Shown here: positions 45,499-63,393 of the stretch, in pieces
Numbering within the stretch: the stretch's first letter is position 1
Layout: each line of letters opens with the position of its first letter
Assembly (NCBI RefSeq): GCF_007644105.1
Contig: NZ_VFAC01000002.1
Span: 124,001 to 188,000 of the forward strand
Origin: Elioraea rosea
GTDB taxonomy: Bacteria > Pseudomonadota > Alphaproteobacteria > Acetobacterales > Acetobacteraceae
Reading direction: 5' to 3'
DNA: 64,000 bases
Program-made: the position numbers and the translations under genes
The notes under the pieces: model-generated
What the model saw: only the letters and a program-made list of their open reading frames with translations
Databases searched by the model: none
What the model was told of the DNA's origin: nothing

Positions 45499-45748
45499 CT
45501 GGAACTCTCCCCCCATGGTCGGACAATCACATCGGGACCGTTGCAAGTGTGCAAGGCGGAATCGGCTGCAACCGAGCTCAACCCGCCACTTTGCATACGA
45601 CCGTCCGTTGAAAGCCGCCGGCTGCCGGGCGGTGACTGCCCGCCCGGGCGCTTCTGGGCGCGTAGGGGAAGATGGCATGAGCGTGCACGCAGCCAGCGCG
45701 TGGTCGCGCTCGCACGTTCTGCCGCGCACGATACAAGGGGAGAGAGAT

Positions 45749-45793
45749 TGGTGGACCCGATACGATTCGAACGTACGACCTCTGCCTTCGGAG
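45749..45793 (-). other. tRNA-Arg(CCG) 3' half, candidate attachment-site copy
   Basis: Read on the minus strand this is a tRNA from the anticodon loop to CCA. It has loop CTCCGAA (anticodon CCG), 3' anticodon stem GGCAG, variable AGGTC, a T-arm GTACG-TTCGAAT-CGTAT that pairs fully, acceptor 3' strand CGGGTCC, discriminator A and CCA. The sequence before the loop (45794 onward) cannot pair with GGCAG, and no GGACCCG acceptor 5' strand is present. The break at the anticodon loop is where many tyrosine integrases cross over. On this strand the element would extend to the right, with the intact tRNA at its far end. Confidence 0.75.
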
Positions 45794-45877
45794 CGCTACC
45801 GGAACGATTTCGCCAGGCTTTCTCTTTCTACGCTGCGACCCTCTAAGACCTCGAGTTGTCCGAGACCGCTCCGTGAC

Positions 45878-45905
45878 CCAGCGCGCGGCGCGACGGGCGC
45901 GCTGG
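45878..45905. other. GC-rich hairpin
   Basis: Perfect 9-bp inverted repeat, CCAGCGCGC at 45878-45886 and GCGCGCTGG at 45897-45905, with a 10-base loop. No T-run follows on either strand, so it is not a standard terminator. It lies about 85 bases right of the tRNA remnant, inside the putative element end. Confidence 0.45.
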
Positions 45906-46042
45906 CCGCTGTCGCCGCAGTCCCGGCGATCATTGTCCTGCGCGTGATCATCGTGCGGCCTCGGTGCGCCAAGCCGATGCGTGAGCGATATGGGTCATGA
46001 GCAGTCTCCTTGCTTGAACACGATCGGCGTCGATCACCATGG

Positions 46043-48217
46043 TCAGGCCAGCCCCGTCCATCGTGCGGCGAAGGCCCACATGTCGGTGATCTCCCCGATC
46101 AACTGAGGGATCGGCTTGCCGGTGCCGTGGCCGGCGCGCGTATCGATGCGCAGCAGACGAGGACGGTCGCCGAGATCGGCGGCCTGCAAGGCGGCGACGT
46201 ATTTGAAGCTGTGGGCGGGCACGACGCGGTCATCGGCGTCGGCGGTCGTGACGAGGATCGCGGGGTAGGCCGCGCCGGAACGGATGGTGTGGTAAGGCGA
46301 GTAGCCCAGCAGGTTACGGAAGTCCGCTTCATCGGCAGGATCGCCAAACTCACTGACCCACAGTCGACCGCCGGTGAACCGGTCGAAGCGCAGCATATCC
46401 ATCACGCCGACGCCGGGCAGCGCGACGGCGAAGAGGTCGGGCCGCTGGTTGACCGTGGCACCGACGATCAATCCGCCATTGGACGAGCCCTGGATCGCGA
46501 GACCATCCGGCGGGGCGATGCCTTCGGCCTTCAGGTATTCGCCCGCGGCGATGACATCGTCGAAGCTGTTCTGCTTGGCGAGCAGACGGCCGGCATCGTG
46601 CCACGCCTTGCCGTATTCCCCGCCGCCGCGGATGTTGGCGACCGCGACGACACCACCCCGCTCGACCCATGCCAGGAGCGCAGGCGAGTACATCGGGACG
46701 ACGCTGATCCCATATCCGCCGTAGACATGCAGCATGGTCGGCGCCGGGCCGGCGATGTCGGCACGGCGGACGAGGAACATCGGCACCCGTGTGCCGTCCT
46801 TCGAGGCGTAGAAGCGCTGCTCCACGACGATGCGCGGGTCGATCGTCACGTCAGCCTTCGCCCACGTCGTGCTGGCCTTGGCGGAAACGTCGTAGCGGTG
46901 GATCGTGGTCGGTGAATTGAAGCTGGTGAAGGTGAAGAACGCCTCGTTGTCGGAGAGGCGGCCGCGGAACCCGCCGGCGGTTCCGATGCCGGGCAGCGCC
47001 ACCGCACCGTCGGGTGTGCCGTCGAGCCGATACCGTCTCACTTCGGTTTGCGCGTCGACCAGGTAGGAGACGATGAGCCTGCCGCCGAGAAGGACCGCAT
47101 CGCTCAGCGTGGCGTCCTGCTCGGGGACGAGCTCCACGAATTCTGGATCGGCGGCAGCCAGATCAAAAGTGACGATCCTGCTGCGCGCAGCACCTTGCTG
47201 CGTGGCCAGGATGACACTCGTGCCGATGCACCCGATCACGGCCCAGAAGTGATCGAAGTTCGACACGAGCGTGCGCGACGGCCAGCCGGGGCGCGTGAGA
47301 TCGACGATCGTAGGTGTGCTTCCGCCCGACCCGGGGGACGAGAAGATCGCGGCGTGGCGGCCATCGTCGGTCACTGTCGTGATGATGTGCACGAGATGCG
47401 GCTGGTCGGGCGTCGCATGGAGGACGCGGTCGTGGGCCTGCGCCGTTCCGAGCGCATGGAAATGCACAGCATGGCCACCCACCGGCGCCGCCGACGGCGT
47501 GTTGTCGGCGGGCGCAGGAAAGCCCGAATAGAAGAATCCGGAGCCGTCCTTGGCCCAGGCGATGGTCGTGAACCGCGCCCAGCGAATCTCGTCCTCAAGA
47601 AATACGCCGCTCGCGACGTCGAGGATGCGGATCGTCCGCCAGTCGCTGCCGGACTCCTGCACCCCAAAAGCGACGAGCCTGCCGTCCTCGGAGGGTGACC
47701 ATTCCGCGAGTGCGGTCGTGCCGTCGCTCGACCACGCATTCGGGTCGATCAGCACACGATCAGGCCCGTCCACTCCCTCACGCATGATGAGCACGGCTTG
47801 GTTGTGGAGCCCGCCGTTGCGCGTGAAGAAGTAGCGGCCGCCCCGCTGCAGCGGCGCGGTGAGCCGCTCGTGATCGAACAGCGTGGTCAGCCGCGCGTGG
47901 AACGCATCGCGCATAGGCAACGTTGCGAGATAGGCACGGGTGGTGCGGTCCTGCGCGGCCATCCAGGCGGCGACCTCGCGATCACTGCGCGCGTCGTTCT
48001 CGAGCCAGCGGTAGGGGTCGGCGATCCGGTAGCCGAAACGCTCGTCCACGACATCGCTGCGCCGCGTTTCCGGGTAGCTGATCGCCGGCATGGCGGCCTC
48101 CGTTGCCTGGCCTTGGGCCAGACGGATGGGAAACAGACGTGACAGCGCGGTGACGAGAGCGGTGCCGAGCATGCCGGCGAGCAAGGCACGGCGGCGCGAT
48201 GCGGGCAGGTCTCGCAT
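46043..48217 (-). CDS. prolyl oligopeptidase family serine peptidase (S9A), exported
   Basis: A 724-residue S9 peptidase with a Tat-like leader (SRRRALLAG). After the leader comes ISYPETRRSDVVDERFG...DPYRWLE, the usual prolyl oligopeptidase start, then a beta-propeller and the C-terminal hydrolase domain. The catalytic triad is visible: Ser in GSSNGG, Asp in DADDRVVP and His in RAGHGTGK. It cleaves short proline-containing peptides, probably in the periplasm. ATG 48217 is used, two bases after the ridA stop, so the two are cotranscribed. First gene to the right of the tRNA remnant. Confidence 0.93.
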   Translation of the reverse strand: MRDLPASRRRALLAGMLGTALVTALSRLFPIRLAQGQATEAAMPAISYPETRRSDVVDERFGYRIADPYRWLENDARSDREVAAWMAAQDRTTRAYLATLPMRDAFHARLTTLFDHERLTAPLQRGGRYFFTRNGGLHNQAVLIMREGVDGPDRVLIDPNAWSSDGTTALAEWSPSEDGRLVAFGVQESGSDWRTIRILDVASGVFLEDEIRWARFTTIAWAKDGSGFFYSGFPAPADNTPSAAPVGGHAVHFHALGTAQAHDRVLHATPDQPHLVHIITTVTDDGRHAAIFSSPGSGGSTPTIVDLTRPGWPSRTLVSNFDHFWAVIGCIGTSVILATQQGAARSRIVTFDLAAADPEFVELVPEQDATLSDAVLLGGRLIVSYLVDAQTEVRRYRLDGTPDGAVALPGIGTAGGFRGRLSDNEAFFTFTSFNSPTTIHRYDVSAKASTTWAKADVTIDPRIVVEQRFYASKDGTRVPMFLVRRADIAGPAPTMLHVYGGYGISVVPMYSPALLAWVERGGVVAVANIRGGGEYGKAWHDAGRLLAKQNSFDDVIAAGEYLKAEGIAPPDGLAIQGSSNGGLIVGATVNQRPDLFAVALPGVGVMDMLRFDRFTGGRLWVSEFGDPADEADFRNLLGYSPYHTIRSGAAYPAILVTTADADDRVVPAHSFKYVAALQAADLGDRPRLLRIDTRAGHGTGKPIPQLIGEITDMWAFAARWTGLA

Positions 48218-48219
48218 TG

Positions 48220-48618
48220 TCAGGGACTGACCGGACTGCGCGCGATCACCTTGATCTCGAAGTCGAACCCGGCGAGCCACGTGACGCCGATCGCGGTCCA
48301 GGTCGGATGCGGCGGGTTGGGGAAGTGCTGGTTCTTGACCTTCATGAAGGTCTCGAACTGCACCTGCGGGTCGGTGTGGAAGCTGGTCACATCGAGGATG
48401 TCATCGAAGCCGCAGCCGGCCGATCCGAGCGTCGCCCGGAGGTTCTCGAAGGCGCGCTGCACCTGGCGCTCGAAAGCGGGCTCTGGGCTGCCATCGTCGC
48501 GGCTGCCGACCTGGCCGGAGACGAACAGCAGGTCGCCGGATCGGACTGCGGCGGAATAGCCATGCTTCTCGTACAGGGCGTGGCGGTTGGGTGGAAAGAA
48601 GGCTTCGCGTTGGGTCAT
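48220..48618 (-). CDS. RidA family protein
   Basis: A 132-residue member of the RidA/YjgF/UK114 family, which deaminates reactive enamine/imine intermediates or acts on related compounds. LLFVSGQVGSRDDGS and AFENLRATLGSAG are typical, as is the length. The conserved Arg of true RidA enzymes (usually before the end) is not obvious, so it belongs to one of the other subfamilies. AAGGAG lies eight bases before ATG 48618. Its first seven codons (MTQREAF) are repeated upstream of the next hydrolase gene. Confidence 0.88.
   Translation of the reverse strand: MTQREAFFPPNRHALYEKHGYSAAVRSGDLLFVSGQVGSRDDGSPEPAFERQVQRAFENLRATLGSAGCGFDDILDVTSFHTDPQVQFETFMKVKNQHFPNPPHPTWTAIGVTWLAGFDFEIKVIARSPVSP
48598..48618 (-). 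repeat. 21-bp direct repeat, copy 1 (start of ridA)
   Basis: The 21 bases coding MTQREAF at the ridA start are found again, identical and on the same strand, at 49707-49727. Sequences on both sides differ. Confidence 0.9.
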
Positions 48619-48704
48619 TGGCTCACTCCTTCGATTGCGGTGGACAAGGGTGCTGTCGTGGCGGCGCGTCACGCGGCCGCCGCTGCCGTCGGCCGCACTC
48701 CCGC

Positions 48705-49541
48705 TCAGCTCTTTACAAAGGCGAGCAGGTCACGGTTCAGCACACCGGCGTTGACCGTGAGCATGCCGTGGGAGAAGCCCGGATAGGTCTTCAGCGTGCC
48801 GCTCTTCAGCAGCCGGACCGCGATCCTGGCCGAGCTGTCGATCGGCACGACCTGGTCGTCCTCGCCGTGCATCACCAATGTCGGCACGGTGATCGCCTTC
48901 AGGTCCTCGGTCTGGTCGGTCTCCGAGAATGCCTTGATGCCCTCGTAATGGGCCTTGGCGCTGCCGCTCATGCCCTGCCGCCACCAGTTCTGGATTACGC
49001 CTTCATGCGCGGTCGCACCCGGGCGGTTGAAGCCGTAGAACGGCCCCGCCGGCACATCGCGGAAGAACTGCGCACGATTGGCCGCCAGCGCATGGCGGAA
49101 GCCATCGAACACCTCCATCGGCAGGCCGCCCGGATAGGCATCGGTGCGGAGCATGATCGGCGGGATGGCTGCCACCAGCACGGCCTTGGCGACGCGGCCG
49201 GCCGGCTGGCCGTGCTTCGCGACGTACCGCACCACTTCGCCGCCGCCCGTGGAATGCCCGATATGGACGGCGTTGCGGAGGTTGAGGTGCTCGGCCACTG
49301 CGAACGCATCCGCCGCGTAATGATCCATGTCGTGGCCGTCCGACACCTGGGCCGAGCGGCCATGGCCACGCCGGTCATGCGCGACGACGCGATAGCCGTG
49401 CTGCAGGAAGAACAGCAACTGCGCGTCCCAGTCGTCAGACGAGAGCGGCCAGCCGTGATGGAACACGATGGGCTGGGCGTCGCGCGGGCCCCAGTCCTTG
49501 TAGTAGATCTCGACGCCGTCGTTTGTCGTCACGGTTGGCAT
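48705..49541 (-). CDS. alpha/beta hydrolase, non-haem chloroperoxidase/esterase type
   Basis: A 278-residue cytosolic alpha/beta hydrolase. The catalytic Ser is in GHSTGG, Asp in GEDDQVVP and His in GFSHGM; PIVFHHGWPLSSDDWD and YRVVAHDRRGHGRS are standard for the chloroperoxidase/arylesterase group. ATG 49541 (PTVTTNDGVEIYYKDWG) gives the family's usual length and has AAGGA upstream. In frame before it lies a Tat-type leader that once extended the protein but is cut off from its start by a TAG (separate entry). Physiologically probably an esterase or lactonase. Confidence 0.9.
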   Translation of the reverse strand: MPTVTTNDGVEIYYKDWGPRDAQPIVFHHGWPLSSDDWDAQLLFFLQHGYRVVAHDRRGHGRSAQVSDGHDMDHYAADAFAVAEHLNLRNAVHIGHSTGGGEVVRYVAKHGQPAGRVAKAVLVAAIPPIMLRTDAYPGGLPMEVFDGFRHALAANRAQFFRDVPAGPFYGFNRPGATAHEGVIQNWWRQGMSGSAKAHYEGIKAFSETDQTEDLKAITVPTLVMHGEDDQVVPIDSSARIAVRLLKSGTLKTYPGFSHGMLTVNAGVLNRDLLAFVKS

Positions 49542-49664
49542 GGTGGCTCGTCCTTCTGTGGAGGTGGTGCTCTGTGCTCCTGCCGCGCGCGGCAGGCCGG
49601 CGAGAGCGACCATCGCGGCCGCTCCCAGTTCGATGATCTCGCGCCGTGTCGGCGCCTAGCTCAT
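49542..49664 (-). pseudogene. disabled Tat leader of the alpha/beta hydrolase
   Basis: In frame with the hydrolase, ATG 49664 is followed by AGC and a TAG at 49658-49656, then PTRREIIELGAAAMVALAG...RAAGAQ, a complete Tat-type signal peptide. The stop at codon 3 means the leader is probably not made from this start, so the hydrolase would stay in the cytosol. A start at ATG 49613, inside the leader, would lack the twin arginines. Confidence 0.7.
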
Positions 49665-49842: not shown

Positions 49843-51309
49843 CTACGTCTCGCGATCATCGAGCCAGGAACCATGGACCCCGGCGGGAACCCATGCCGGC
49901 ATCTCGATCGCGGCGATCGGTCCCGCTGCTACCCGCGTGGCATCGAGGATCCAGAGTTCGGCCTGTCGTGTCCGCAGATCGGTGATGTAGGTGAGGAGCC
50001 AGCCATGATCCTCGCCCTGGCCAGTCGGGTCGGCCGCGAAGCACGGTTCGCCGGCATAGACACCCATCGGCAACGAGAGGTGCTGGCGCTCGCCAGTCGA
50101 AAGGTCGTACTTGGCGATACCGCAGGTCTCCGTCCCACCCCCCGGGAACGAGCAGGCGTATGAGTAGCGGCTCTCACGCCCCGTATAGGCGAGGTTCATC
50201 GTAGGGAACTCGGTGACGAGGTCGTCCATGATCTCATTGCGGGCCGTGCGCTGCGCCGGATCGATCGTCCAGCGCGAGCGGTAGCAACCGCCGACCGGCA
50301 TCGCGTCATGCGGCGCAGACCCATTGATGAAGTCGCTGGCCGACCTCCACGAAGGCTCGTGCATGAACGGGCCCTCAATGACGATCCGCCCGCTCCCATC
50401 CTCCCAGGAATTGGCGAGGTGGATGGAGACGTGCGGATCGACGGCGATCCAGACCGGCGGTTCACCGCCGGAACGATCACGCTTCATGACGCCGACGCGC
50501 CCGCGATAGCCGCGGTCGAAATCATAGGGGAAGGCGAGACCGTTCTGGAGATTGAGGACGAGCGAGCCGTCAAACCAGATGACGTGGTTTTTCGTGATCG
50601 CGAAGTCGTGGATCACAGACGGACCAGGTCCCTCGATGATCTCGGACGTCACGAGCCGACCCGCCTTATCCGCGACGTGATAAGTGAGATGGGGAGGCAG
50701 CGGCGAATTGCCGATGAAGATCATCTCACCGGTCGCGGGACAGATCTTCGGGTGTGCCGTCATCATCGTCTTGAGCGCACCGTCGAAATCGTACGCGCCG
50801 ACGGTCTCGAGCTCGGGCGTTATTTCGAAGGGCAGGTTCACCTCCTGCAGAGCGAGGATGCGGCCCGCATGGCGCACGATGCTGGTCGCCGCAGCACTGG
50901 CGTGGAGGTCCATCGTCCCGTCCTCGCGGAAGAGCTTGGCGCCATCCAGCGCTGGTGTGCGCATCCACCTGTTCCGGTACCATTCGACGCGGCCGCCGGA
51001 GAGACGGATGCCGTGCACCATGCCCGAACCGTAGAACCAGGCGCCCGGGTTGATCCCGTCCTTTGGGTTGTGACCATTGCGGAAGTAGCTGCCCGACAGG
51101 GCCGACGGGATCACGCCACGAACAGGAAGCGTGAAGGAAGTCGTCTCGTCCATGACCGGCTTGAAATGGCCGGTCATGAAGGCGGGCAGCCTGTCGCCGT
51201 CCGCGTGCCGGCCCGCGGCCAGCGCTTCGAAGGTGAGGATGGAAGAAGCTACGGTGGTTGCTGCAAGGCTGCTTGCTATGCGCAGGACGTCGCGGCGGGT
51301 GGCGTTCAT
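49843..51309 (-). CDS. carotenoid oxygenase family protein, exported
   Basis: A 488-residue beta-propeller dioxygenase of the RPE65/CCD/lignostilbene family. The four iron-binding histidines are suggested by AHPKICP, VIHDFAI, SIHLANSW and GVHGSW. It has a Tat leader (TRRDVLRIAS), so the folded iron enzyme would be exported. It splits a conjugated double bond of a carotenoid, stilbene or related phenolic. ATG 51309 overlaps the stop of the small membrane gene (TGATG). No carotenoid biosynthesis gene is near. Confidence 0.92.
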   Translation of the reverse strand: MNATRRDVLRIASSLAATTVASSILTFEALAAGRHADGDRLPAFMTGHFKPVMDETTSFTLPVRGVIPSALSGSYFRNGHNPKDGINPGAWFYGSGMVHGIRLSGGRVEWYRNRWMRTPALDGAKLFREDGTMDLHASAAATSIVRHAGRILALQEVNLPFEITPELETVGAYDFDGALKTMMTAHPKICPATGEMIFIGNSPLPPHLTYHVADKAGRLVTSEIIEGPGPSVIHDFAITKNHVIWFDGSLVLNLQNGLAFPYDFDRGYRGRVGVMKRDRSGGEPPVWIAVDPHVSIHLANSWEDGSGRIVIEGPFMHEPSWRSASDFINGSAPHDAMPVGGCYRSRWTIDPAQRTARNEIMDDLVTEFPTMNLAYTGRESRYSYACSFPGGGTETCGIAKYDLSTGERQHLSLPMGVYAGEPCFAADPTGQGEDHGWLLTYITDLRTRQAELWILDATRVAAGPIAAIEMPAWVPAGVHGSWLDDRET

Positions 51310-51725
51310 CAGTTCGATCCCTTCGTCGCCTGGACGTGAGCCCGGCGGCGCTCGATCTTTGCGAGAAGAACGAGACTCGCGACGAGCACGAGCGCACCGT
51401 TGACGGGATGATAGGCAAGGAGCGGTGAGCCATCCCCGCCGGCCAGCACGAACTGCACGAGGGTGATGACGGCGAGGAGTCCTGCCCACCAGCCGAAGCC
51501 GCGCAGGCAACCCACGGAAAGCGCGCCGAGAAGCAGCACCAGCACAGGGAGTGCGAGAAGCGAGCCGAGGATGGCATGCGTTGAAAAATCGCTTCCTCCG
51601 AACAGCGCTTGTCCCGCCAGGAGGAACTGACCGAGGACCCCGGCCGGCACGAGCCATCCGCTTGCGGTGAACCAGAACGGCGTGCCGCGCTCGAGGTCCC
51701 GGAGGGTGTCGTGGACCGGCTTCAT
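51309..51725 (-). CDS. four-helix membrane protein (DUF6220-like)
   Basis: A 138-residue integral membrane protein with four helices; FWFTASGWLVPAGVLGQFLLAGQALF at the N-terminus and YHPVNGALVLVASLVLL near the end resemble DUF6220-type proteins. It is coupled on both sides: its ATG overlaps the stop of the quinone-reductase-like gene (ATGA) and its stop overlaps the carotenoid oxygenase start. Function is not known. Confidence 0.7.
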   Translation of the reverse strand: MKPVHDTLRDLERGTPFWFTASGWLVPAGVLGQFLLAGQALFGGSDFSTHAILGSLLALPVLVLLLGALSVGCLRGFGWWAGLLAVITLVQFVLAGGDGSPLLAYHPVNGALVLVASLVLLAKIERRRAHVQATKGSN

Positions 51726-52287
51726 CGCGCGGCCCCTGCAACGATGGGCGACGTCGCGAAGCGGGAGAGCGCGTCGCGGTAGTCCCGCCCGGCATTCGCA
51801 AGGGCCACCGCGTCCAGGTCGGCGGTGCCGTACAGGAGAAACGTGTCCCGCCAGTCCATCGCAAAGCGGTTCACCGTGGCGCGAAGCGGCACGAGAAGCT
51901 CAGCAACCGTGAAGCGGTTGCGCCCTTCCCGCCGATAGGTGGCCTCGGCGGCGCCCATTGACGCTGCGATCATGACGGGCTTTCCGGAGAGACCGGCGCC
52001 CTCCGTATCCGGGCGGATGTAGCCCATCCGGGTGAGCACCTTGTCCTGCCAATCCTTCATCACCGCAGGGGTCGAGTACCACTGCATTGGGAACTGAAGG
52101 ACGATGCGCTCAGCACCGAGAAGCCGGGCTGCTTCGCGCTCGCCGTCGCGATCCATGTCGATGCCCTGCGGGTAGAGGGCCGTCATGTCGGCGATCTGGA
52201 CGTCGCGAGGCCTCTGGCCGCGCTCGCCAGCGCCGCATTGACGCGGGACCGAGACAGGTCAGGGTGTAAAAGAAGGATCAGGGTCAT
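51722..52287 (-). pseudogene. NAD(P)H-dependent flavin oxidoreductase (KefF/MdaB type), frameshifted
   Basis: A flavodoxin-fold quinone reductase read in two frames. The first, from ATG 52287, gives MTLILLLHPDLSRSRVNAAL; the second continues DVQIADMTALYPQGIDMD and has the flavin-site region FPMQWYSTPAVMKDWQDKVL. The frame changes near 52205, where one base is missing; the total of 566 bases is one short of a whole number of codons. The second frame starts at an internal ATG (52186) and lacks the first FMN loop. It heads the unit with the membrane protein and carotenoid oxygenase and is divergent from a LysR gene that probably controlled it. Confidence 0.82.
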
Positions 52288-52419: not shown

Positions 52420-53307
52420 GTGAATTTACGCTCAGTCGATCTCAACCTCCTGGTCGTTCTCGACGCGCTTCTCGACGAAGGACATGTCGGCCGCGCCGGC
52501 GATCGCGTCGGGCTCTCGCAGCCGGCGACGTCCGCGGCGCTTCAGCGCTGCCGCCACCTTTTCCGGGATGATCTCTTGGAAAGACGTCATGGGACGATGC
52601 GGCTGACGCCGAAGGCAGAAAGTCTCCGCCAGCCCTTGAAGGCCCTGCTGGCCTCGGCAGCGGCGCTCATCGATCCCCCGAAGGTCCCGCTTGCCGAAAT
52701 CCAGGCGACGATACGCCTGACGATGGCAGACGCTCTCGCGCTTCTGCTGGTCGAGCCACTCCTTGCCGACCTCGCAGGTTCCGCTCCAGGCATCGATATC
52801 GTTCTGCAACCGTGGCGCGGAAACGAAGCGGCGAAGCATGCCCTGGCCGATGGCTCGACCGACCTTGCCGTCTCCGTTTCCCCCCCCGCCGACGACGAGT
52901 TGCGCCGCGAGCCATTGAGTGAGGAATCCTATGCCGTCGTCATGCGGGAGGGCCATCCGGCCGCGCGTCGCTTCACGCTCGAGCGCTGGCTCGCGTATCC
53001 GCACATCGTTGTCTCAGGGCGCGGCGAAGCGCGCACGCCGCTCGATACGGAGCTCGCAAAGCGCGGTCTCCGGCGACGCGTCAGGCTCGTCGTTCCGACA
53101 TTCGACATGGTGGCGCCACTGCTACGGTCCACCACAATGATCGCGATGCTGCCGAAGCGAGTGGCGGAGCGGGCGACAGGTCTCGCCGTTTTCGAGCCGC
53201 CAATTCCCGTGGCGGGTTTCACGCTCTCGCTCGTCTCGCACCGCCGCCGCGAGCACGACCAGGCTCTACGACACGTCGCGGACCGGCTGGCAGCATTGTT
53301 CCGGTAG
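52420..53307 (+). CDS. LysR-family transcriptional regulator (NodD/SyrM-like group)
   Basis: A 295-residue regulator. The helix-turn-helix lies at about residues 20-60 (HVGRAGDRVGLSQPATSAAL), followed by a substrate-binding domain. The start MNLRSVDLNLLVVLDALLDE is that of the group regulating quinone reductases and aromatic pathways. It starts with GTG 52420. Divergent from the frameshifted oxidoreductase gene, which is its likely target; a reactive quinone or aromatic compound may be the inducer. Confidence 0.9.
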   Translation: MNLRSVDLNLLVVLDALLDEGHVGRAGDRVGLSQPATSAALQRCRHLFRDDLLERRHGTMRLTPKAESLRQPLKALLASAAALIDPPKVPLAEIQATIRLTMADALALLLVEPLLADLAGSAPGIDIVLQPWRGNEAAKHALADGSTDLAVSVSPPADDELRREPLSEESYAVVMREGHPAARRFTLERWLAYPHIVVSGRGEARTPLDTELAKRGLRRRVRLVVPTFDMVAPLLRSTTMIAMLPKRVAERATGLAVFEPPIPVAGFTLSLVSHRRREHDQALRHVADRLAALFR

Positions 53308-53323
53308 GCGACCGCTTCCAGGA

Positions 53324-54223
53324 TCAGGGCGTCGTGCCGCGCCACCTGACATGCTCGATCAACGCGCGCAGCTTCGGCGCGAGGTTCCGCCGGTTCGGAA
53401 AGTACAGGAAGAAGCCGGGAAAGGGCGGGAAGAACATCTGCAGCAGCGGCACCAACTGACCGGACGAGACAAGGGGCCTGAACGTTTCCTCCATGCCGAA
53501 GGTGATGCCGCCACCGGCGCAGGCCGTGCGGATCATCAGCCCCATGTCGTTGGTGGTGATCTGCGGATCCACCGCCACGTCGAACTCCCGCCCGTCTTCG
53601 CCGAATTCCCAACGGTAGGGCGCGGTGTGCGGCGCCGCGCGCCAGCCGATGCAGCGATGCCGTACCAGCTCCGAGGGATGCGCGGGCACACCGAAGCGCG
53701 CGATGTAGGACGGCGCGGCGACGGCGGTCTGACGCTGCTCGCCCGACACCGGGATGGCGATCATGTCCTGCGCGATCACCTCGCCAAGTCGCACGCCTGC
53801 GTCATAGCCCTCGGCGACGATGTCGAATTCCTCGTCGGTGACCGTGACATCGATCTGGACGGCAGGATGGGCATCCACGAAACCCGCCAGCAGCGGCCCC
53901 GCGATGAAGCGCTCGGCAATGGAGGACACAGCAAGCCGCAGTAGCCCGCTCGGCGCGCTGTCGCGATCCGCCGTCGCATCCAGCGCCGCGCCGATCTCGC
54001 CGATGGCGGGCGCCATGCGCTGGTGCAGCTGCGCTCCCGCCTCCGTCAGGCTGACACTGCGCGTCGTGCGCTGCACGAGCGCGACGCCGAGCCGATCCTC
54101 GAGGCGACGGATTGCCTGGCTCACCGCCGATCGCGTGACACCCAGGTGCTCGGCAGCCGCGCGGAAGCTTCGCGCCTCCGCGACGGCGAGGAACACGGAG
54201 ACGCCGGTCAGGTCCACGGCCAT
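53324..54223 (-). CDS. LysR-family transcriptional regulator
   Basis: A 299-residue regulator with helix-turn-helix at about residues 18-60 (SFRAAAEHLGVTRSAVSQAI) and a substrate-binding domain to the end. It is unrelated to the preceding LysR beyond family level. It is divergent from the aldo/keto reductase gene (99-bp spacer) and probably controls it. It converges with the other LysR gene with 16 bases between the stops. Confidence 0.92.
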   Translation of the reverse strand: MAVDLTGVSVFLAVAEARSFRAAAEHLGVTRSAVSQAIRRLEDRLGVALVQRTTRSVSLTEAGAQLHQRMAPAIGEIGAALDATADRDSAPSGLLRLAVSSIAERFIAGPLLAGFVDAHPAVQIDVTVTDEEFDIVAEGYDAGVRLGEVIAQDMIAIPVSGEQRQTAVAAPSYIARFGVPAHPSELVRHRCIGWRAAPHTAPYRWEFGEDGREFDVAVDPQITTNDMGLMIRTACAGGGITFGMEETFRPLVSSGQLVPLLQMFFPPFPGFFLYFPNRRNLAPKLRALIEHVRWRGTTP

Positions 54224-54322: not shown

Positions 54323-55405
54323 ATGATGCTCGATACCTACAGGCTGCTGGGCCGTTCTGGCCTGCGCGTCTCGCCCATGAGCCTGGGCACGATGACGTTC
54401 GGATCGGAGTGGGGGTGGGGTGCCGAGATCGGCGAGGCCCGCCGCATCTTCGACCTCTATGTCGATCGCGGCGGCAACTTCGTCGACACCGCGGTGAACT
54501 ACACCGACGGCGCGTCGGAACGCTTCCTCGGCGAGTTCATCGGCGGCAAGCGCGAGCGGATCGTGCTTGCGACAAAGTTCACCATGGCGCGCGATCCCGG
54601 CAATCCGAATTCGGGCGGCAACCACCGGCTGAACATGATCCGCTCGGTCGAGCAGAGCCTGCGCCAGCTTGCCACCGACCGGATCGATCTTCTCTACCTG
54701 CACGCCTGGGACATGACGACGCGGCCGGAGGAAGTGATGCGGGCGCTCGACGATCTCGTCCGAGCGGGCAAGGTCCTCTACGCCGGCATCTGCAACACGC
54801 CCGCCTGGCGGGTCGCCGAAATGCAGACACTCGCCGAGCTGCGCGGGTGGTCGCCCTTCGTCGGGCTGCAGATCGAATACAGCCTGGTCGAACGCAGCGT
54901 CGAGCATGAGCTGATGCCGATGGCACGGGCTCTCGGGCTCGGCGTGCTGCCATGGTCGCCGCTCGGCGGCGGCTTGCTGGCGGGTAAGTACACGCGGGCG
55001 GACGTGGTGGATTCCCGCGAGGCGGCAGTGTCGCCCAGCCGCAAGGGCGTGATCGCCGCCTCCGGACACCTCAATGCGCGCGCGATCGCGATCGCGGAAG
55101 AGGTTCGCGCTGTCGCCGCGGAAGCGGGCGCGACTCCGTCGCAGGTCGCACTGGCCTGGACGCTGACGAATCCCGCGGTGGTGTCGCCCGTCCTGGGCGC
55201 CCGCACCGTTGCCCAGACGGAAGAAAACCTGGCGGCGCTAGAGGTGGTGTTATCGCCGGACCAGGCCGACCGCCTCAATCGGATCAGCGAACCCGATCCG
55301 ATCTTTCCAGCCCGCTTCGTGCGGCGCCCGCTGGTGCAGCAGTTGATCCACGGCGGCGCCGCCGTGGCGCGCTGCCCGATCGCCACCCATGCAACAGGAG
55401 CCTGA
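54323..55405 (+). CDS. aldo/keto reductase
   Basis: A 360-residue NADPH-dependent oxidoreductase of the AKR fold. The catalytic Asp and Tyr are in FVDTAVNYTDG, Lys in ATKFTM and His in YLHAWDM. NADPH contacts are suggested by GARTVAQTEENL. It reduces aldehydes or ketones in the cytosol. GAGGAG lies before ATG 54323 (a second ATG follows directly). The last about 25 residues are extra compared with typical members. The small exported protein gene starts two bases after its stop. Confidence 0.93.
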   Translation: MMLDTYRLLGRSGLRVSPMSLGTMTFGSEWGWGAEIGEARRIFDLYVDRGGNFVDTAVNYTDGASERFLGEFIGGKRERIVLATKFTMARDPGNPNSGGNHRLNMIRSVEQSLRQLATDRIDLLYLHAWDMTTRPEEVMRALDDLVRAGKVLYAGICNTPAWRVAEMQTLAELRGWSPFVGLQIEYSLVERSVEHELMPMARALGLGVLPWSPLGGGLLAGKYTRADVVDSREAAVSPSRKGVIAASGHLNARAIAIAEEVRAVAAEAGATPSQVALAWTLTNPAVVSPVLGARTVAQTEENLAALEVVLSPDQADRLNRISEPDPIFPARFVRRPLVQQLIHGGAAVARCPIATHATGA

Positions 55406-55808: not shown

Positions 55809-56237
55809 TCATCCGTTGGCGTCGCTGCGCGCCTTGGGCCAATACGTCCCGAAGGACCAGAGATTGCCCTCCGGGTCACGGCAGGCGAACTCCCGGCTGC
55901 CGTAGTTCGTGTCGCGCAGCGGCATGGTAAACTCGGTACCCGCTGCCGCCAGCGTCGCATGCAGTGCGTCAGGATCGGCGATGGCGACGTAGAGCGCATC
56001 GGTGCGCCGGCCGGCCGCATCGCCGACGAGCCGGCCATACGCATCGTCGCGGCTCTGGCCGAGCATCAGGATCGAGGAGCCGAGGGCGAGTTCGGCGTGC
56101 TCCACGATGCCGCCGTTGCGGTGGACGGCATGCTCGGTGAAGCCGAGCTGCTCCTTCAGCCAGGTGATCATCGCCTCCGCGTCCCGGCACCGCAGTGTCG
56201 GAAAGATGCAGGGGGCTTCGGTGGTGGGCGTTGGCAT
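55809..56237 (-). CDS. VOC-family protein (glyoxalase/bleomycin-resistance-like)
   Basis: A 142-residue vicinal-oxygen-chelate protein: FPTLRCRDAEAMITWLKEQLGF at the start, HAELALGSSILML in the middle and FACRDPEGNLWSFGTYWP at the end. These small proteins bind metals or hydrophobic toxins; the true reaction is unknown. AGGAG lies seven bases before ATG 56237. It lies 68 bases downstream of an AraC-type gene on the same strand. Confidence 0.87.
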   Translation of the reverse strand: MPTPTTEAPCIFPTLRCRDAEAMITWLKEQLGFTEHAVHRNGGIVEHAELALGSSILMLGQSRDDAYGRLVGDAAGRRTDALYVAIADPDALHATLAAAGTEFTMPLRDTNYGSREFACRDPEGNLWSFGTYWPKARSDANG

Positions 56238-56305
56238 CGGCTGCTCCTGTCGAACGTCGTCGCGCCCAGCATCGTCGCCGCCGGCGCGGCAGGCTTGAAG
56301 ATTTG

Positions 56306-57154
56306 TCAACCGAAGGCGGGATCGTCCGGCTGCCGCAGGCGCGGGTCGCGCAGGGCGACGCGGCGGGCCCAGGCGCCGGGCGGCTCTCCGGCCAGCGCCA
56401 CGAACTCCCGGATCAGGTGCGCCTGGTCGGCATAGCCACAGGACGCGGCGATCCTGGCCCAGCGGCCGGCAGCCTCAGCCTGTACCTGTGCCTGCACGCA
56501 GGCCCGCCGGAAGCGCATCATCCGCGCGATCCGCTTAGGGCCGACGCCGATCTCGACCCGGAACCGCTCGGCCAGATGTGTGCGGCTCCAGCCAATTTCC
56601 TCGGCGAGGCCGGCGATCCGCGCAGCACCACCAGTCGCGGCGAGGCGGCGCCAGGCGTAGGCGATGGCGGGCGAGGGCGCGAAGTCGTCGCGGCTGGCGA
56701 CGAAGTCCTCGACCAGATCGAACCGGGCGTGCCAGGAGGGCGTCGCGCGGACGCGCTCCACCAGCGCCCGTCCCGCCGCGCGGAACACATCCCCGGCATC
56801 GACCATGCGCGCGCAGAGATCGACGACGGCGCCGCCGAGGCAGCGATAGGCGCCGAGCGGCGTGAAATCCACCTGCACGCAGGCGGCACTGCCGTCGGAG
56901 CGGATGTCGACCGGCCCCGCATACAGGCCCGCTGCGAAACTCCCCACGCGATCCGCCTCATGCGGTTCGCGGCCCAGCGCGATCCGGAATGGCGTGCCGA
57001 GGCTGATGATGAGCGGCACGACGAGGCCCGCCGTCTCGCGCTGGTGATGGTCCGCTGCGCGTGTCTCCCGGTAGCCCGCGATGGCGGAGACGAGATGGCG
57101 CGTGCGTTCGGACGGCGTGCGGCGGATGATCTCGAAAGCGTCCGGCGTTTCCAT
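56306..57154 (-). CDS. AraC-family transcriptional regulator
   Basis: A 282-residue regulator with the two helix-turn-helix motifs in the C-terminal 100 residues (RIAGLAEEIGWSRTHLAERF and WARIAASCGYADQAHLIREF). The N-terminal part is a sensor domain resembling DUF6597. ATG 57154 is chosen because GAGG lies seven bases before it; ATG 57163 is possible. Probably regulates the VOC gene after it and perhaps the divergent remnants at 57277-58575. Confidence 0.88.
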   Translation of the reverse strand: METPDAFEIIRRTPSERTRHLVSAIAGYRETRAADHHQRETAGLVVPLIISLGTPFRIALGREPHEADRVGSFAAGLYAGPVDIRSDGSAACVQVDFTPLGAYRCLGGAVVDLCARMVDAGDVFRAAGRALVERVRATPSWHARFDLVEDFVASRDDFAPSPAIAYAWRRLAATGGAARIAGLAEEIGWSRTHLAERFRVEIGVGPKRIARMMRFRRACVQAQVQAEAAGRWARIAASCGYADQAHLIREFVALAGEPPGAWARRVALRDPRLRQPDDPAFG

Positions 57155-57276
57155 GCGCGCCATCCTCGCCTTGGCCAGGGCCGCGAGACAACGTCCCAGC
57201 TGGCTGCCGTCATCGCGCCTTCGCGAGCCCTTGCTGCAGGGCCTCGGCCGTGTCGTGGCCGAGGGTCGCGTCAAGC

Positions 57277-57529
57277 GCTGCGGTTCCAGATCGCGACCGA
57301 CGACCAGGCGGAGACCGACCGGTACTGGGATGCCATCGTCGCCAACGGCGGGCAGGAGAGCGCCTGCGGCTGGTGCAAGGACCGCTGGGGCGTGAACTGG
57401 CAGATTACGCCGCGCGTATTGACGGAGGCGATCGCCGCCGGCGGTGGCGAGGCGAAACGGGCCTTCGAGGCCATGATGACCATGCGCAAGATCGACATCG
57501 CCGCCATTGAGGCGGCACGGCGCGGATAG
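57277..57529 (+). pseudogene. PhnB/3-demethylubiquinone-methyltransferase-like VOC protein, 5'-truncated
   Basis: Only the C-terminal half of a PhnB-type VOC protein remains: FQIATDDQAETDRYWDAIV, then CGWCKDRWGVNWQITPRVL, to the stop at 57529. The usual N-terminal half (about 75 residues with the first metal ligand) is missing, and no start codon with ribosome site precedes it. A minus-strand tail ending at 57210 (ALDATLGHDTAEALQ...) directly abuts the break and may belong to a lost neighbour. Clearly a deletion remnant. Confidence 0.85.
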
Positions 57530-57542
57530 AGGAGGACAAGCG

Positions 57543-57893
57543 ATGTATGTCGATGGGTTCGTGCTGGCGGTGCCCACCGCAAACAACGAGACCTACCGCA
57601 GCCTCGCGGCCGACGCCGCGGTGGTGTTCAAGGAACATGGCGCACGGAGCTACGTCGAATCCTGGGGTGACGATGTGCCCGAAGGCAAGGTGAACTCGCT
57701 GCACACCGCCGTGCTGCGCAAGCCCGATGAGACGGTGGTGTTCGCCTAGGCCACCTGGCCCGACAAGGCCACGCGTGATGCGGGCATGCGCAAGGTGTTC
57801 GACGATCCGCGCCTTGCCCAGTCAAAGGAGCAGATGCCGTTCGACGGCACGCGCATGATCTTCGGCGGGTTCGAGGTGATCGTGCAGGCGTGA
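57543..57893 (+). pseudogene. DUF1428 family protein interrupted by TAG
   Basis: A DUF1428 gene with GAGGAGGA upstream and the family start MYVDGFVLAVPTAN. After ETVVFA a TAG stands at 57747-57749. The same frame continues ATWPDKATRDAGMRKVFDDP and MPFDGTRMIFGGFEVIV to a normal stop at 57893. The family usually has a Trp near this place (VVFSW), so a single TGG to TAG change would explain it. The 68-residue product is probably inactive. Confidence 0.85.
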
Positions 57894-57911
57894 CGCGCGG
57901 GAACGCGTGCG

Positions 57912-58575
57912 GTGATCCCCACCATCACGGCGTTCGAACGCTCGCCCGATCGCGGCAGGGGGCTCGCGCGCGACATGCGCGTGCGCTGGGCGCTGGGCGC
58001 TGGAGTAGGTGGGGCAGCCGTATGACGTGCGGCTCGTGTCGTTCGATGCCATGATGCAACCAGCGCACCGCGCGCTGCATCCGTTCGGACAGATCCCGAC
58101 CTGGCAGGAAGGCGGTCTCGTCCTGTTCGAATCAGGCGCAATCGTGCTCCATGTCGCCGGGCGCCATCCGGGCCTGCTGCCGGATGACGCGCAGGCGCGG
58201 GCACGGGCTGTCGCGTGGATGTTCGCTGCCCTCGATACGGTCGAGCCGCCGATCTGGGAGTTCAATATGGCGCGGGTGCTCGAGGGCGACATGGCCTGGC
58301 ACGCTGCGCGCGAGCCGATGCTGAAGCAGCGCGTGCATGTGCGGTTGAGCCAGCTCGCGACGCGGCTGGGCGATGCCGACTGGCTCGATGGCGGCTTCAC
58401 CTCTGGCGACCTGATGATGATCACGGTGCTGCGACGGCTGGCCGGGTCGGGGCTGCTCGAGCAACACCCCACCCTTGCCGCCTATGTCGCCCGCGGCGAG
58501 GCGCGGCCTGCGTTCGGGCGCGCATTCGCTGCGCAGCTGGCGGTGTTCACCGGCCAGCCGGGCCATGAGGGGTGA
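57912..58575 (+). pseudogene. glutathione S-transferase with 7-bp duplication and TAG
   Basis: A GST gene with two lesions. The first frame begins IPTITAFERSPDRGRGLARD at GTG 57912 and runs to RWAL. There CGCTGGG (57984-57990) is repeated at 57991-57997, shifting the frame. In the shifted frame RWALE is followed by TAG (58006-58008), then VGQPYDVRLVSF and an intact C-terminal domain to 58575. The part from GTG 58009 lacks the glutathione-binding N-terminus, so a working enzyme is unlikely. Confidence 0.85.
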
Positions 58576-59952: not shown

Positions 59953-60573
59953 TCAACTCCGTTCGTCAGGGCGAGATGCCCCAGAATGCCGGTCTCCCGC
60001 CGTGGGATGAAAGGCGAGATGAAACGCCTCGGGCCGCATGATCTTGGCGAAGTAGTGCGCTTCCGCTGCATGCCACTGCCGCTCCCACGGACCTATCGTC
60101 TCCTCGCGCGCGATCAGTCTGGCCTCGCGTTCGGCATCCTGCGCGACGGCGAGGATGCGAAGGTCGAGCAGATCGGCCAGTTCGGGGCGCGCTGCATACA
60201 CGCCTTCCAGAATGACCACGGTGCGAGGTGTCAGCACCGTCAGCGCATCGACCAGCCGACCGTCGAAGGCGTCCCAGTCGAAGGCGCGCCAGTTTGCCGC
60301 GCGCCCGGCGCGCACCGTCGCCAGCACGTCGCGCTGGCGTGTCCAGTCGATGCAGGTCGCGGAAAGCACAGCCGGCTCGTCGTCGTGCAGGGCGGTGCCG
60401 CCGGAGTAGAAATCATAGCCGGCGATCAGCGCCGCATCGGGCCGCTCAGCTAGCGCAGCGGCCAGCGTGGACTTGCCCGTCCCGCTCCGCCCGTCGATCG
60501 CGACGACGAACGGTCGCGACGATCCACGCGCCCACCGCGCGATGGTCTCCGAGAGTCAGTCGGCAACGGTCAT
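59953..60573 (-). pseudogene. uridine-kinase-like P-loop protein with TGA at codon 6
   Basis: From ATG 60573 the frame reads MTVAD, then TGA (60558-60556), then LSETIARW and a P-loop GRSGTGKST at about 28-36. GYDFYSGG, TCIDWTRQRDVL and VVILEGVYAARPEL follow, the uridine kinase/phosphoribulokinase-like pattern. Only a GTG at 60369, beyond the P-loop, could restart. A TGG to TGA change (ADW) would explain the stop. The rest of the gene is undamaged, so the mutation looks recent, or it is a base error. Its ATG overlaps the preceding hydrolase stop (ATGA). Confidence 0.82.
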
Positions 60574-61694
60574 TGTTGCACCGACACGCCGGCGGGCAGG
60601 TTGGGCGTCGCGGCGGCACAGTCCGATCCGGCAAGCGGGGTCACGTGGCGTACGATCACCTCGACGAAGGCGGCGGGCTGCTCGAAGGGCGGATTGTGCG
60701 CGCTCTCCTCGAACGGGAAGAGCCGGCGAAACGGCGCCGACACGGTGCGGAACCAGGTCTCCGCCAGCGACGATGGCACCTGCCGGTCATGACGACCCTG
60801 GATCAGGAAGACCGGCACGTCGAGGTGGCGCATGTGCCACAGGCGAAGCTGGGAGAATTCCGGCCAGAGGCGTTCGAGGGACCAGCGGTTGCCGCGGCCG
60901 AACAGCCAGAGATCGTAGAGCCCCACCTCGCTCTGCTGGAGTGCACGCCAGATCAGCGCGCCGGTCGAGAGGTCAGGCGCGTGGAACGCCCCGCCCAGAC
61001 GCTCGTTCCAGCGGCGTGACACCAGCATGGCGTCCACGTCGTGCGGCGGCGGCCCGATGGTGCGCAGCGCCGCGATCGCCGCGGCGTCGCGGCGACGCTC
61101 CGCCTCATCCAGCGCGGCCTGCCAGGACATGCGCTCGCCCGCCGGCATGTCCACCACCTGCGCGATGCCGACATAGGCCAGCACGTCGCCGGGATGCCGC
61201 GCGGCGTGCAGCAGCCCTGGCGCGGTGCCCCAGGAATGCGCGACGACGATGGCGGGCCCCGCGCCGAAGCGGGTGCGCATCGCGTCGATCAGCGCGTGAA
61301 GGTCGGCGACGAACTGCTCAATTCGCATGGTCTCACCAGGGATCGGCGGGTCGAACGACCGGCCAGTGCCGCGCTGTTCCCAGTAGACGACCAGGAAATG
61401 CTGCTCGAGCTCCGGCACGAAGGCGCGGAACAGCGGGGATTCCGACGCGCCGGGGCCGCCATGCACCAGGACGAGCAGCGGGTTGCGCGTGTTCGTTCCC
61501 CGCAGCCAGATGCGCTGGCGCACGCCGTTGAGCATCAGGTCGGTCATCTCCGCGACGCTGCCGTCGCGTGGGCGCCCATCCGGCCCGCGAAAGGCGGGGG
61601 TGCTGGTGCAGGAGCCGAGCGCCAGCAGCAGGGCCAGCCCGGCCACAGTCAAGGCGGGCCACAGCCAGCGGCGCATGGCGCTGCACATCTTCAT
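60570..61694 (-). CDS. alpha/beta hydrolase lipoprotein (proline iminopeptidase-like)
   Basis: A 374-residue lipoprotein with signal and lipobox (LALGSC, lipid on Cys at about 29). The hydrolase domain has LVHGGPGASES (oxyanion hole), WEQRGTGRSF, Ser in AHSWGT, Asp in QGRHDRQVP and His near FEESAHNP. HGGPG and WEQRGTGRS are typical of proline iminopeptidase relatives. Start is ATG 61694, 61688 or 61676. Its 5' end overlaps the truncated GST gene on the other strand, so the junction of two joined segments lies here. Confidence 0.87.
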   Translation of the reverse strand: MKMCSAMRRWLWPALTVAGLALLLALGSCTSTPAFRGPDGRPRDGSVAEMTDLMLNGVRQRIWLRGTNTRNPLLVLVHGGPGASESPLFRAFVPELEQHFLVVYWEQRGTGRSFDPPIPGETMRIEQFVADLHALIDAMRTRFGAGPAIVVAHSWGTAPGLLHAARHPGDVLAYVGIAQVVDMPAGERMSWQAALDEAERRRDAAAIAALRTIGPPPHDVDAMLVSRRWNERLGGAFHAPDLSTGALIWRALQQSEVGLYDLWLFGRGNRWSLERLWPEFSQLRLWHMRHLDVPVFLIQGRHDRQVPSSLAETWFRTVSAPFRRLFPFEESAHNPPFEQPAAFVEVIVRHVTPLAGSDCAAATPNLPAGVSVQQ

Positions 61695-62035: not shown

Positions 62036-62929
62036 TCACGCGCGCAGCCGTGCCTGGACGGCGGCCAGCTTCTCCGGGTTGCGCACGACGTAGATCGCTG
62101 CGATGCGGCCGTCGCGGATCTCCAGCGCGGTGCTCTGCGGCAGGCCATCGGGCTCCAGCGTGACGTAGCCGGGCAGTGTATTGACCAGGCCGAGATGCAG
62201 CAGCGCGGTGATGCCCTCATCCCGCCGGCGCGCGAGGCCAACGAAGAAGCGCACGATCCTGTCGGCCCCCTCGATCGGGTTGAGCGCGGCCAGCCGGATG
62301 CCACCACCATCCGTATGCAGCACGGCGTCCTCCGTCAGCAGTTCGCGCAGGACCGTTTCGTCACCCGTCTGGGTCGCGGTGAGGAAGGCGCGGGCTATCC
62401 GTTCGGCCTCGGCGCTGGTGACGCGGTGTCGGGGCGTGGCGTCGCCGAGCCGCGCCCGCGCACGGCTCGCGAGCTTGCGGCACGCCGCTTCGGCCCGGCC
62501 CAGCAGGCCGGCGATCTCCGCGAACGGCGTCTCGAACAGGTCGTGCAGGATGAATACGGCGCGCTCGGCCGGTGAGAGGCGCTGCAGCGCCAGCAGGAAC
62601 GCCACGGACAGGTCCTGCGCGCGCTCGTGCGCGGCCTGCTGCGGCGGATCCCGTGACTCCAGAACGGGCTCGGGCAACCAGGGGCCGACATAGATCTCCC
62701 GGCGGTGGCGGGCCGACTTCAGGTGGTCGAGGCTGAGCCGGGCCGTCGCCTTGAGCAGCCAGGCGCGCGGCACCGCGATGCTGCTTCGCTCGGCGCCCTG
62801 CCAGCGCAGGAACACGTCCTGCACGATGTCCTCCGCGGTCGCGAGCGAGCCGGTCATGCGATAAGCGAGCCCGATCAACTCGGCACGGAGCGGAACGTAG
62901 TGCTCGGCCGCGTCGGGCTCGCCCTGCAT
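62036..62929 (-). CDS. ECF41-type RNA polymerase sigma factor (SigJ-like)
   Basis: A 297-residue ECF sigma factor with sigma2 (LAYRMTGSLATAEDIVQDVF), sigma4 (LSPAERAVFILHDLFETPF) and a SnoaL-like C-terminal extension. Two ECF41 hallmarks are present: DGGGI at 207-211 (family DGGGR/K) and NPEKL at 284-288 (family NPDKL). In this group the extension takes the place of an anti-sigma factor and sets activity. It starts two bases after the carboxymuconolactone-decarboxylase-like gene, the usual ECF41 partner, and shares its promoter at 63428-63454. Confidence 0.92.
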   Translation of the reverse strand: MQGEPDAAEHYVPLRAELIGLAYRMTGSLATAEDIVQDVFLRWQGAERSSIAVPRAWLLKATARLSLDHLKSARHRREIYVGPWLPEPVLESRDPPQQAAHERAQDLSVAFLLALQRLSPAERAVFILHDLFETPFAEIAGLLGRAEAACRKLASRARARLGDATPRHRVTSAEAERIARAFLTATQTGDETVLRELLTEDAVLHTDGGGIRLAALNPIEGADRIVRFFVGLARRRDEGITALLHLGLVNTLPGYVTLEPDGLPQSTALEIRDGRIAAIYVVRNPEKLAAVQARLRA

Positions 62930-62931
62930 GG

Positions 62932-63393
62932 TCAGGCGGCCGCCGGCGCGGCGGCCTGCGGCGGCACCGCGCGGAAACCGATCGCGAGGCGGTTCCAGCC
63001 ATTAATCGTGACGATCAGCAGGGTGAGCTTCACGATCTCCTCATCGTTGAAATGCGGCTTCAGCCCGTCATAGTCACCGCCCGGCGCACGGGTCGTGGCG
63101 ACTAGCGTCAGCGCCTCGGTCCAGGCGAGAGCCGCGCGTTCCCGCGGCGTGTAGTGCGGCGCCTCCCGCCAGGCGTCGAGCAAATAGAGCCGGGCCTCCA
63201 CCTCGCCGGCCTTGCGCGCGTCGCGTGTGTGCATGTGGATGCAATAGGCGCAGCCGTTGATCTGGGAAGCGCGTGTCTCCACCAGCTTGATCAGGCTGTG
63301 CTCAAGCCCGCTCGAGGACACGGCCTTGTCGAGGTTCAGCATGGCCTTCATGAGCTGGGGAGCGGCTGCAAAGTAGTCCAGGCGGGTCGTCAT
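62932..63393 (-). CDS. carboxymuconolactone decarboxylase / AhpD-like protein
   Basis: A 153-residue alkylhydroperoxidase-D-like protein with the redox motif C48-A-Y-C51 and His55 (GCAYCIHMH). Members reduce peroxides or decarboxylate; those linked to ECF41 sigma factors are their main known target genes, with undefined physiological substrates. It is the first gene of the pair with the sigma factor. ATG 63393 has AAGGA upstream; the ECF41 promoter ends 35 bases before the start. Confidence 0.92.
   Translation of the reverse strand: MTTRLDYFAAAPQLMKAMLNLDKAVSSSGLEHSLIKLVETRASQINGCAYCIHMHTRDARKAGEVEARLYLLDAWREAPHYTPRERAALAWTEALTLVATTRAPGGDYDGLKPHFNDEEIVKLTLLIVTINGWNRLAIGFRAVPPQAAAPAAA

Follow-up and report, generated by a model that had tools for sequence, protein, structure and literature searches.

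A probable decayed, integrase-less island at tRNA-Arg(CCG) in Elioraea rosea

Introduction

Islander (PMC4383910), in the part of its description drawn on here, finds genomic islands marked by an intact tRNA gene and a displaced 3′ fragment of that gene, and rejects candidates without an integrase. For S. meliloti, a section of PMC11476347 describes a host tRNA-Leu(UAG) that was inactivated by insertion and replaced by a foreign-type gene borne on the element, so the principle of splitting and replacing a tRNA gene is already known. Our search of the open-access literature returned the general principle and this one replaced-tRNA precedent, and nothing on tRNA-Arg(CCG) as such a target in the Acetobacteraceae.

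We analysed a window of 64,000 nucleotides from Elioraea rosea (the whole stretch, positions 124,001–188,000 of contig C12 in genome G000), in which an initial annotation had taken an isolated tRNA-Arg(CCG) 3′ half for the end of an integrated element. That claim gains support from an intact tRNA gene on the predicted side and from orphan halves accompanied by integrases in relatives. The DNA from 45.75 to 66.7 kb is likely a decayed, immobile tRNA-Arg(CCG) island that has lost its integrase.

Results

An orphan 3′ half and an intact gene on one strand

The minus strand at 45,749–45,793 reads CTCCGAAGGCAGAGGTC GTACGTTCGAATCGTAT CGGGTCC A CCA and comprises the anticodon loop, the 3′ side of the anticodon stem, the variable loop, the T-arm, the acceptor 3′ strand, the discriminator and CCA of a tRNA-Arg(CCG). 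The core occupies 45,777–45,793, the T-arm 45,760–45,776, the acceptor 3′ strand with A73 45,752–45,759 and the CCA 45,749–45,751, all on the minus strand. This reading confirms a 3′ half that stands without a 5′ half and whose T-arm is fully paired (5 of 5 pairs, G–T counted), as initially described; the half is attR-like. No whole tRNA was called in the window by ARAGORN, or by Rfam at the gathering score, as expected where only half a gene is present.

A 201-bp query (45,700–45,900) searched by BLAST against its own genome, which is rated 100% complete, gave two matches at E ≤ 0.001: the orphan itself and C12:190,700–190,748, on an intact tRNA-Arg(CCG). ARAGORN places this gene at L003:3,701–3,777 on the minus strand (window coordinate 66,701–66,777). 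The gene shares contig and strand with the orphan, from which it is 21 kb away, and lies 2.7 kb outside the window. An element to the right, with an intact tRNA-Arg(CCG) at its far end, had been predicted from the window, and the gene was found where that prediction put it. The chance that a single randomly placed fragment would fall on the correct strand and within 21 kb on the 3′ side is about 0.0023. The start, strand and side of the orphan are those expected of a displaced half.

The predicted gene was also to end with the same 45 bases and to have an integrase beside it; the tRNA is present, and neither the 45-base identity nor the integrase is. Only 40 of the 45 bases agree, so the two ends do not form identical direct repeats, and the differences consist of two compensated T-stem pairs and the discriminator (base 73). 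A differing 3′ half had been named in advance as grounds for abandoning the reading, and the halves do differ, yet the downstream flank of the intact gene independently resembles an element junction (below). Because of that resemblance, we take the mismatch to reflect either replacement of the T-arm or a second event, and not to refute the reading.

Measured against the marks used in Islander-type searches, the locus has an intact gene and an end fragment on the same strand and the correct side, a fragment that starts at a known crossover sub-site (the anticodon loop) and a length of 20.9 kb, within the range of 2–200 kb. No integrase inside or overlapping it was detected, at the ends or on the contig, and for this reason we call the locus a derelict remnant and not a complete island.

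Elements at tRNA-Arg(CCG) in the Acetobacteraceae

In a set of 60 genomes of Acetobacteraceae (own included), at least 13 more orphan tRNA-Arg(CCG) 3′ halves occur in at least 11 of the 59 relatives, counted among the matches listed; incomplete matches in G047 (1–62), G069 (16–77) and G052 (17–77) and a 5′ half in G014 stand outside this count. The 13 orphans begin at the same base as the one in E. rosea, CTCCGAAGG, a common start that was placed through the core pattern, BLAST alone having given starts at tRNA positions 29–33.

At each of the 11 readable orphans, an intact or broken tyrosine integrase gene begins 89–185 bp inside the element, its start facing the orphan (starts from open reading frame lists or tblastn); the other two orphans, in G009 and G072, lie where a contig ends, and their element side is absent. 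Pfam searches of eight of the 11 integrase proteins found PF00589 in seven (in G054 the match is short), whereas the truncated protein of G017 matched the arm domain PF13356 alone; the remaining three integrases rest on tblastn. Broken or partial integrases are those of G017, G054 and two of the G053 elements; in G018, terminase and capsid genes mark the element as a prophage. Given this position in all 11 readable elements, the integrase belongs beside the orphan half and not beside the intact tRNA, where the initial annotation had placed it. Judged from these sequences, tRNA-Arg(CCG) is an integration hot spot in the family and has been invaded repeatedly.

In three genomes the host gene itself has been destroyed: G013 (C3:455,228–540,924; L244, L245), G042 (C34:320,555–388,686; L240, L241) and G076 (C268:6,402–84,546; L242, L243). 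There foreign DNA follows the 5′ half, and the orphaned 3′ half is found 68–86 kb away beside an integrase. About 250 bp past the split 5′ half stands a complete tRNA-Arg(CCG) of a different type, with a GCACCCG acceptor. Both ends of such an element are present in G072 (L246, L247) and G009 (L252, L253), on separate contigs only. The IMG/VR contig IMGVR_UViG_3300050330_000093 (L325:2,408–3,034) has a tRNA core and arm repeats after a gene that by eye resembles a tyrosine recombinase; the core is followed by the 5′ half of a spare-type tRNA-Arg, which has itself been split, and then by a full tRNA-Arg(CCG), an arrangement that looks like serial replacement.

Two further observations concern orphan halves in these genomes. 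G053 (L248, L249, L250) has three of them with three different T-arms, one stem being mispaired (GAAGG/CCAAT), and two are followed by the arm repeat of another class, as in tandem insertion; no full-length tRNA-Arg(CCG) was found in G053 among the matches listed. Many orphan 3′ halves of tRNA-Gly(GCC), beginning at about position 25–31 and mostly of 90–100% identity, occur in G002, G003, G042, G055, G061, G065, G073 and others; this gene may be another hot spot, though its T-arm hardly varies.

Search for an integrase at the E. rosea locus

By analogy with the relatives' elements, an integrase-side arm repeat and an integrase start would be expected about 130–190 bp from the core, at 45,923–45,983 on the plus strand, and neither was found there. 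A PF00589 profile search of the E. rosea genome gave seven places at E up to 10, none of them on C12, and tblastn with four integrases at either end gave a best E of 0.27, at 20.8 kb, with nothing at the expected site. The statement that the window holds no integrase thus agrees with the profile search of the contig and with tblastn at the ends, and the companion expectation, of an integrase near the intact tRNA at the far end, failed on the same searches. On the inner flank of the orphan there is no partner arm repeat, the longest word shared with the other end being eight letters, and there is no arm-repeat match near 45,923–45,983; the combination of matching repeat and integrase that stands beside the orphan in relatives' elements is absent here.

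An arm-type repeat beyond the intact gene

Matched tandem repeats on either side of a core have the appearance of arm-type integrase sites. We infer that the tandem repeats seen here are putative arm sites of this kind, with CTCCGAAGGC as the putative cleavage core. Beyond the window and beyond the intact tRNA, the tandem repeat CGGAAGCACCACGGAAGCA lies on the minus strand at L003:3,616–3,634 (window coordinate 66,616–66,634), 111 bp from the core; with the intact gene it makes up an attL-like junction. With the arm on the integrase side, the repeat has 20 letters in common in G042 and 21 in G013. Repeats of like form stand 111 bp from the core in G042, G013 and G076 (a GTAAGCA variant) and twice in G053; two more GGAAGCA-type repeats (L026, L030) lie at roughly +91 to +93, which shows that not all such repeats keep the 111-bp spacing.

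Both arms of one element share a word of at least 11 letters in five of eight elements (G045, G042, G076, G013, G016), as do two of 56 cross pairs, both of them between G042 and G013, which carry an identical repeat. Arm pairing fails in G054, and the arms of G017 and G018 share words of only 9–10 letters, lengths that also occur in cross pairs; words of at least nine letters (seven of eight elements) were discarded as a pairing mark because 16 of the 56 cross pairs reach that length too. Tandem 8-mers occur at the arm position in 10 of 47 tRNA-Arg(CCG) loci (own included) versus 2 of 361 control windows (p = 9e-9), and in 2 of 28 tRNA-Gly(GCC) loci and none of 30 tRNA-Arg(TCT) loci; the loci came from the family and class and the controls from the same loci, with same-flank loci counted once and short-flank loci omitted.

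Window coordinates 66,607–66,746, which take in the 3′ half of the intact tRNA and 94 bp downstream, match DNA that follows an orphan in G053 with 90.7% identity over 140 bp (E = 1e-50), and a second post-orphan place in that genome matches the right-end flank with 87.6% identity over 137 bp. With a repeat as in two relatives' elements and a flank similar to post-orphan DNA, the right end looks like an attL. Old host flank common to both genomes could in principle also explain the G053 match, but the end of an element is favoured by the arm repeat and by the occurrence of the match twice in a single genome.

Congener G001 has a AGGTAGCA-type repeat at the arm position, sharing 20 letters with an integrase-side arm of G053, and G002 shows no such repeat at that position. 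A separate stretch at window coordinates 66,260–66,408 (L003:3,260–3,408) matches two places in L250 of G053 over about 100–150 bp at 75–83% and is possibly a dispersed repeat.

Interior and surroundings of the island

The element remnant extends from 45,794 to the window end at 64,000 and on to 66,700 (20.9 kb in total), between the orphan and the intact tRNA. Its left part carries, on the minus strand, predicted cargo genes for a prolyl oligopeptidase (46,043–48,280; PF02897, PF00326), an endoribonuclease L-PSP (RidA-like) family protein (48,220–48,672; PF01042) and an alpha/beta hydrolase (48,705–49,613), then a full-length carotenoid oxygenase of the RPE65 family (49,843–51,240; PF03055, 1–468 of 469) and a flavodoxin-fold protein with its N-terminal part missing (51,722–52,186; PF02525, 59–196 of 198). 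Two convergent LysR-type regulators fill 52,420–54,223 (52,420–53,307 on the plus strand and 53,324–54,223 on the minus strand), followed by cargo genes for an aldo/keto reductase (54,323–55,405, plus; PF00248) and a glyoxalase-fold protein (55,809–56,309, minus; PF00903). The stretch at 57,270–58,575 (plus) is decayed, with a C-terminal piece of PF06983 (70–116 of 116), a truncated DUF1428 (PF07237, 1–68 of 102) and a GST whose N-terminal domain is shortened (GST_N, 28–75 of 76). Another alpha/beta hydrolase (60,570–61,694, minus; cargo) and a pair formed by a sigma-70 family factor and a carboxymuconolactone decarboxylase (62,036–63,393, minus), with 74.6% identity to a Roseomonas plasmid pair, complete the series. 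The earlier picture of a mosaic of small, often broken genes holds for the accessory genes and not for the breakage: about four truncations are clear, and most genes scanned have near full-length family matches.

Some cargo genes have relatives on alphaproteobacterial plasmids, as single accessory genes or short runs (two 8-kb queries). A phage origin of the cargo was rejected, the 8.0 of 20.9 kb queried giving only weak matches in four phage records. Cargo common to other tRNA-Arg(CCG) elements was likewise set aside: when the 23 predicted proteins between 43.8 and 67.5 kb were compared with the collected tRNA-Arg(CCG) loci, besides DksA only the hydrolase at 48,705–49,613 (62% identity, 208 residues) and a LysR regulator (39%) matched the G013 element, which is too little. 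GC content is 67.8% in the island, 69.4% just to its left, 68.4% further left and 71.0% to its right, and with this slight drop only and no clear tetranucleotide boundary, composition was dropped as a boundary mark. The decayed PF06983/DUF1428 stretch (57,286–57,899) has a relative in G001 (L043:13,531–13,807), inverted and about 5.6 kb from the tRNA-Arg(CCG) of that genome.

Synteny with congener G001 runs through dksA up to the tRNA 3′ end and then breaks. A 3-kb query across the orphan found neither an empty site nor a shared insertion in two congeners, and queries with a permease, a protein of unknown family and the same 3-kb stretch found, among the relatives searched, none in which the left flank adjoins a tRNA; the left-flank transporter operon lies in G001 on another contig, with other neighbours. 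With dksA as anchor, tRNA-Arg(CCG) stood nearby in 1 of 80 loci, some of them short, and that one was G001 itself. A 63-bp BLAST match of the orphan's downstream flank to G002 was dropped, as 8% of shuffles reach it.

Discussion

In the mechanism we propose, a tyrosine-integrase element would have recombined with tRNA-Arg(CCG) within the anticodon-loop region. Joined to a 3′ half that came with the element, the 5′ half of the chromosomal gene would again have formed a working tRNA gene, which now stands at 66.7 kb; the original 3′ half of the host gene would have been displaced to the far end, now at 45.75 kb. Later loss of the integrase and of the integrase-side arm sites would have left an immobile 21-kb island of metabolic cargo. 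That both ends come from a single element is our inference; at such a hot spot, a further insertion or a deletion would be about equally probable.

It is very improbable that the orphan has nothing to do with integration and is a stray fragment of a tRNA gene, produced by copying or by a rearrangement. The failure to detect an integrase and the unconserved left flank would suit such a fragment, but its boundary in the anticodon loop is common to 13 orphans, its strand and side are both correct (about 0.002 by chance) and an arm-type repeat lies beyond the intact gene. A stronger competitor, to which we give somewhat less than an even chance, is a history of two events, in which an older element, of another class, left the orphan as its scar, a different and later element adjoins the intact tRNA and the DNA between them is composite. 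The T-arms of the two halves differ, as two events would allow; the inner flank of the orphan lacks the CGGAAGCA repeat and shares nothing with 11 other elements beyond an 18-base stretch; and G053, where two orphans stand beside AGGTAGCA-type integrase arms and are then followed by CGGAAGCA-type repeats, suggests that tandem insertions do happen. Yet the E. rosea genome holds one orphan only, where two might remain, and no further tRNA core lies between 45.8 and 66.7 kb.

The T-arm mismatch bears on how the working gene came about. In four of four same-contig pairs from relatives (G017, G018, G045, G054) the T-arms of both halves agree. By the logic of integration, the working gene takes up the element's half and the old host half moves to the opposite end, and the flank of the intact gene resembles an element's end; on both grounds the working tRNA here is probably a chimera with an element-derived T-arm, and the orphan keeps the older one. 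Plain drift of the orphan or of the intact gene, with no exchange, is conceivable and somewhat less likely than not. T-arms of other tRNAs vary too, which is why we rejected T-arm swapping as proof of exchange: between the tRNAs of G000 and G001, 36 of 120 differences fall within the T-arm, and Arg(TCT) has seven T-arm types in 30 sequences, five of them on one identical remainder (15 sequences). Against drift, apart from base 73 the halves differ only in two base pairs, each changed on both sides so that pairing is kept, and the intact T-arm 3′ strand, with the downstream flank, matches DNA resembling the end of a foreign element. tRNA-Arg(CCG) also varies more widely: its 30 sequences show 12 T-arm types, six of which occur among 9 sequences with an identical remainder, against the seven types of Arg(TCT) and two of Gly(GCC), the 30 sequences per tRNA being the best matches to the own tRNA and so a biased sample. 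Between G000 and G001, 23 of 43 tRNAs are identical, and Arg(CCG) alone has at least three T-arm differences and none elsewhere. The family-wide variation is suggestive of T-arm overwriting, not proof of it.

Tentatively, and with slightly more doubt than belief, we suggest that the tRNA-Arg(CCG) of Acetobacteraceae may be serially rewritten, insertions swapping in the T-arm of an element or a whole foreign tRNA. Its 3′ half would then evolve by element turnover with the 5′ half nearly fixed, and the orphans would be fossil T-arms. Should T-arm overwriting prove general, mobile elements would vary core tRNA genes, and orphan halves would record their earlier states. The island as such adds one more case to a known kind, and the interest would lie in T-arm overwriting, should it recur. 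From raw sequence we find support for a 21-kb island that an integrase-requiring finder (for example, Islander) would reject, and we obtain a second, integrase-independent marker of derelict islands in the form of tandem arm repeats that stand at a given spacing past the core of the tRNA.

Compared with the islands described in the consulted part of the Islander paper (PMC4383910), the E. rosea locus has the same end marks, the same anticodon-centred crossover class and a length within 2–200 kb, whereas it has no integrase and its fragment is not identical to the gene. Target and crossover core are those of the Acetobacteraceae elements in G013, G016, G017, G018, G042, G045, G053, G054 and G076, and the arm repeat beyond its own intact tRNA is identical to that of the G042 and G013 elements; unlike the E. 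rosea locus, the family's elements still have an integrase gene, intact or broken, next to the orphan half. As with the S. meliloti phage-related sequences, so far as the cited section of PMC11476347 covers them, tRNA genes serve as hot spots, and the split-and-replace elements of the relatives substitute a tRNA. In contrast to the S. meliloti tRNA-Leu(UAG) case of that section, the target in the relatives is tRNA-Arg(CCG), and the element in E. rosea left an intact gene.
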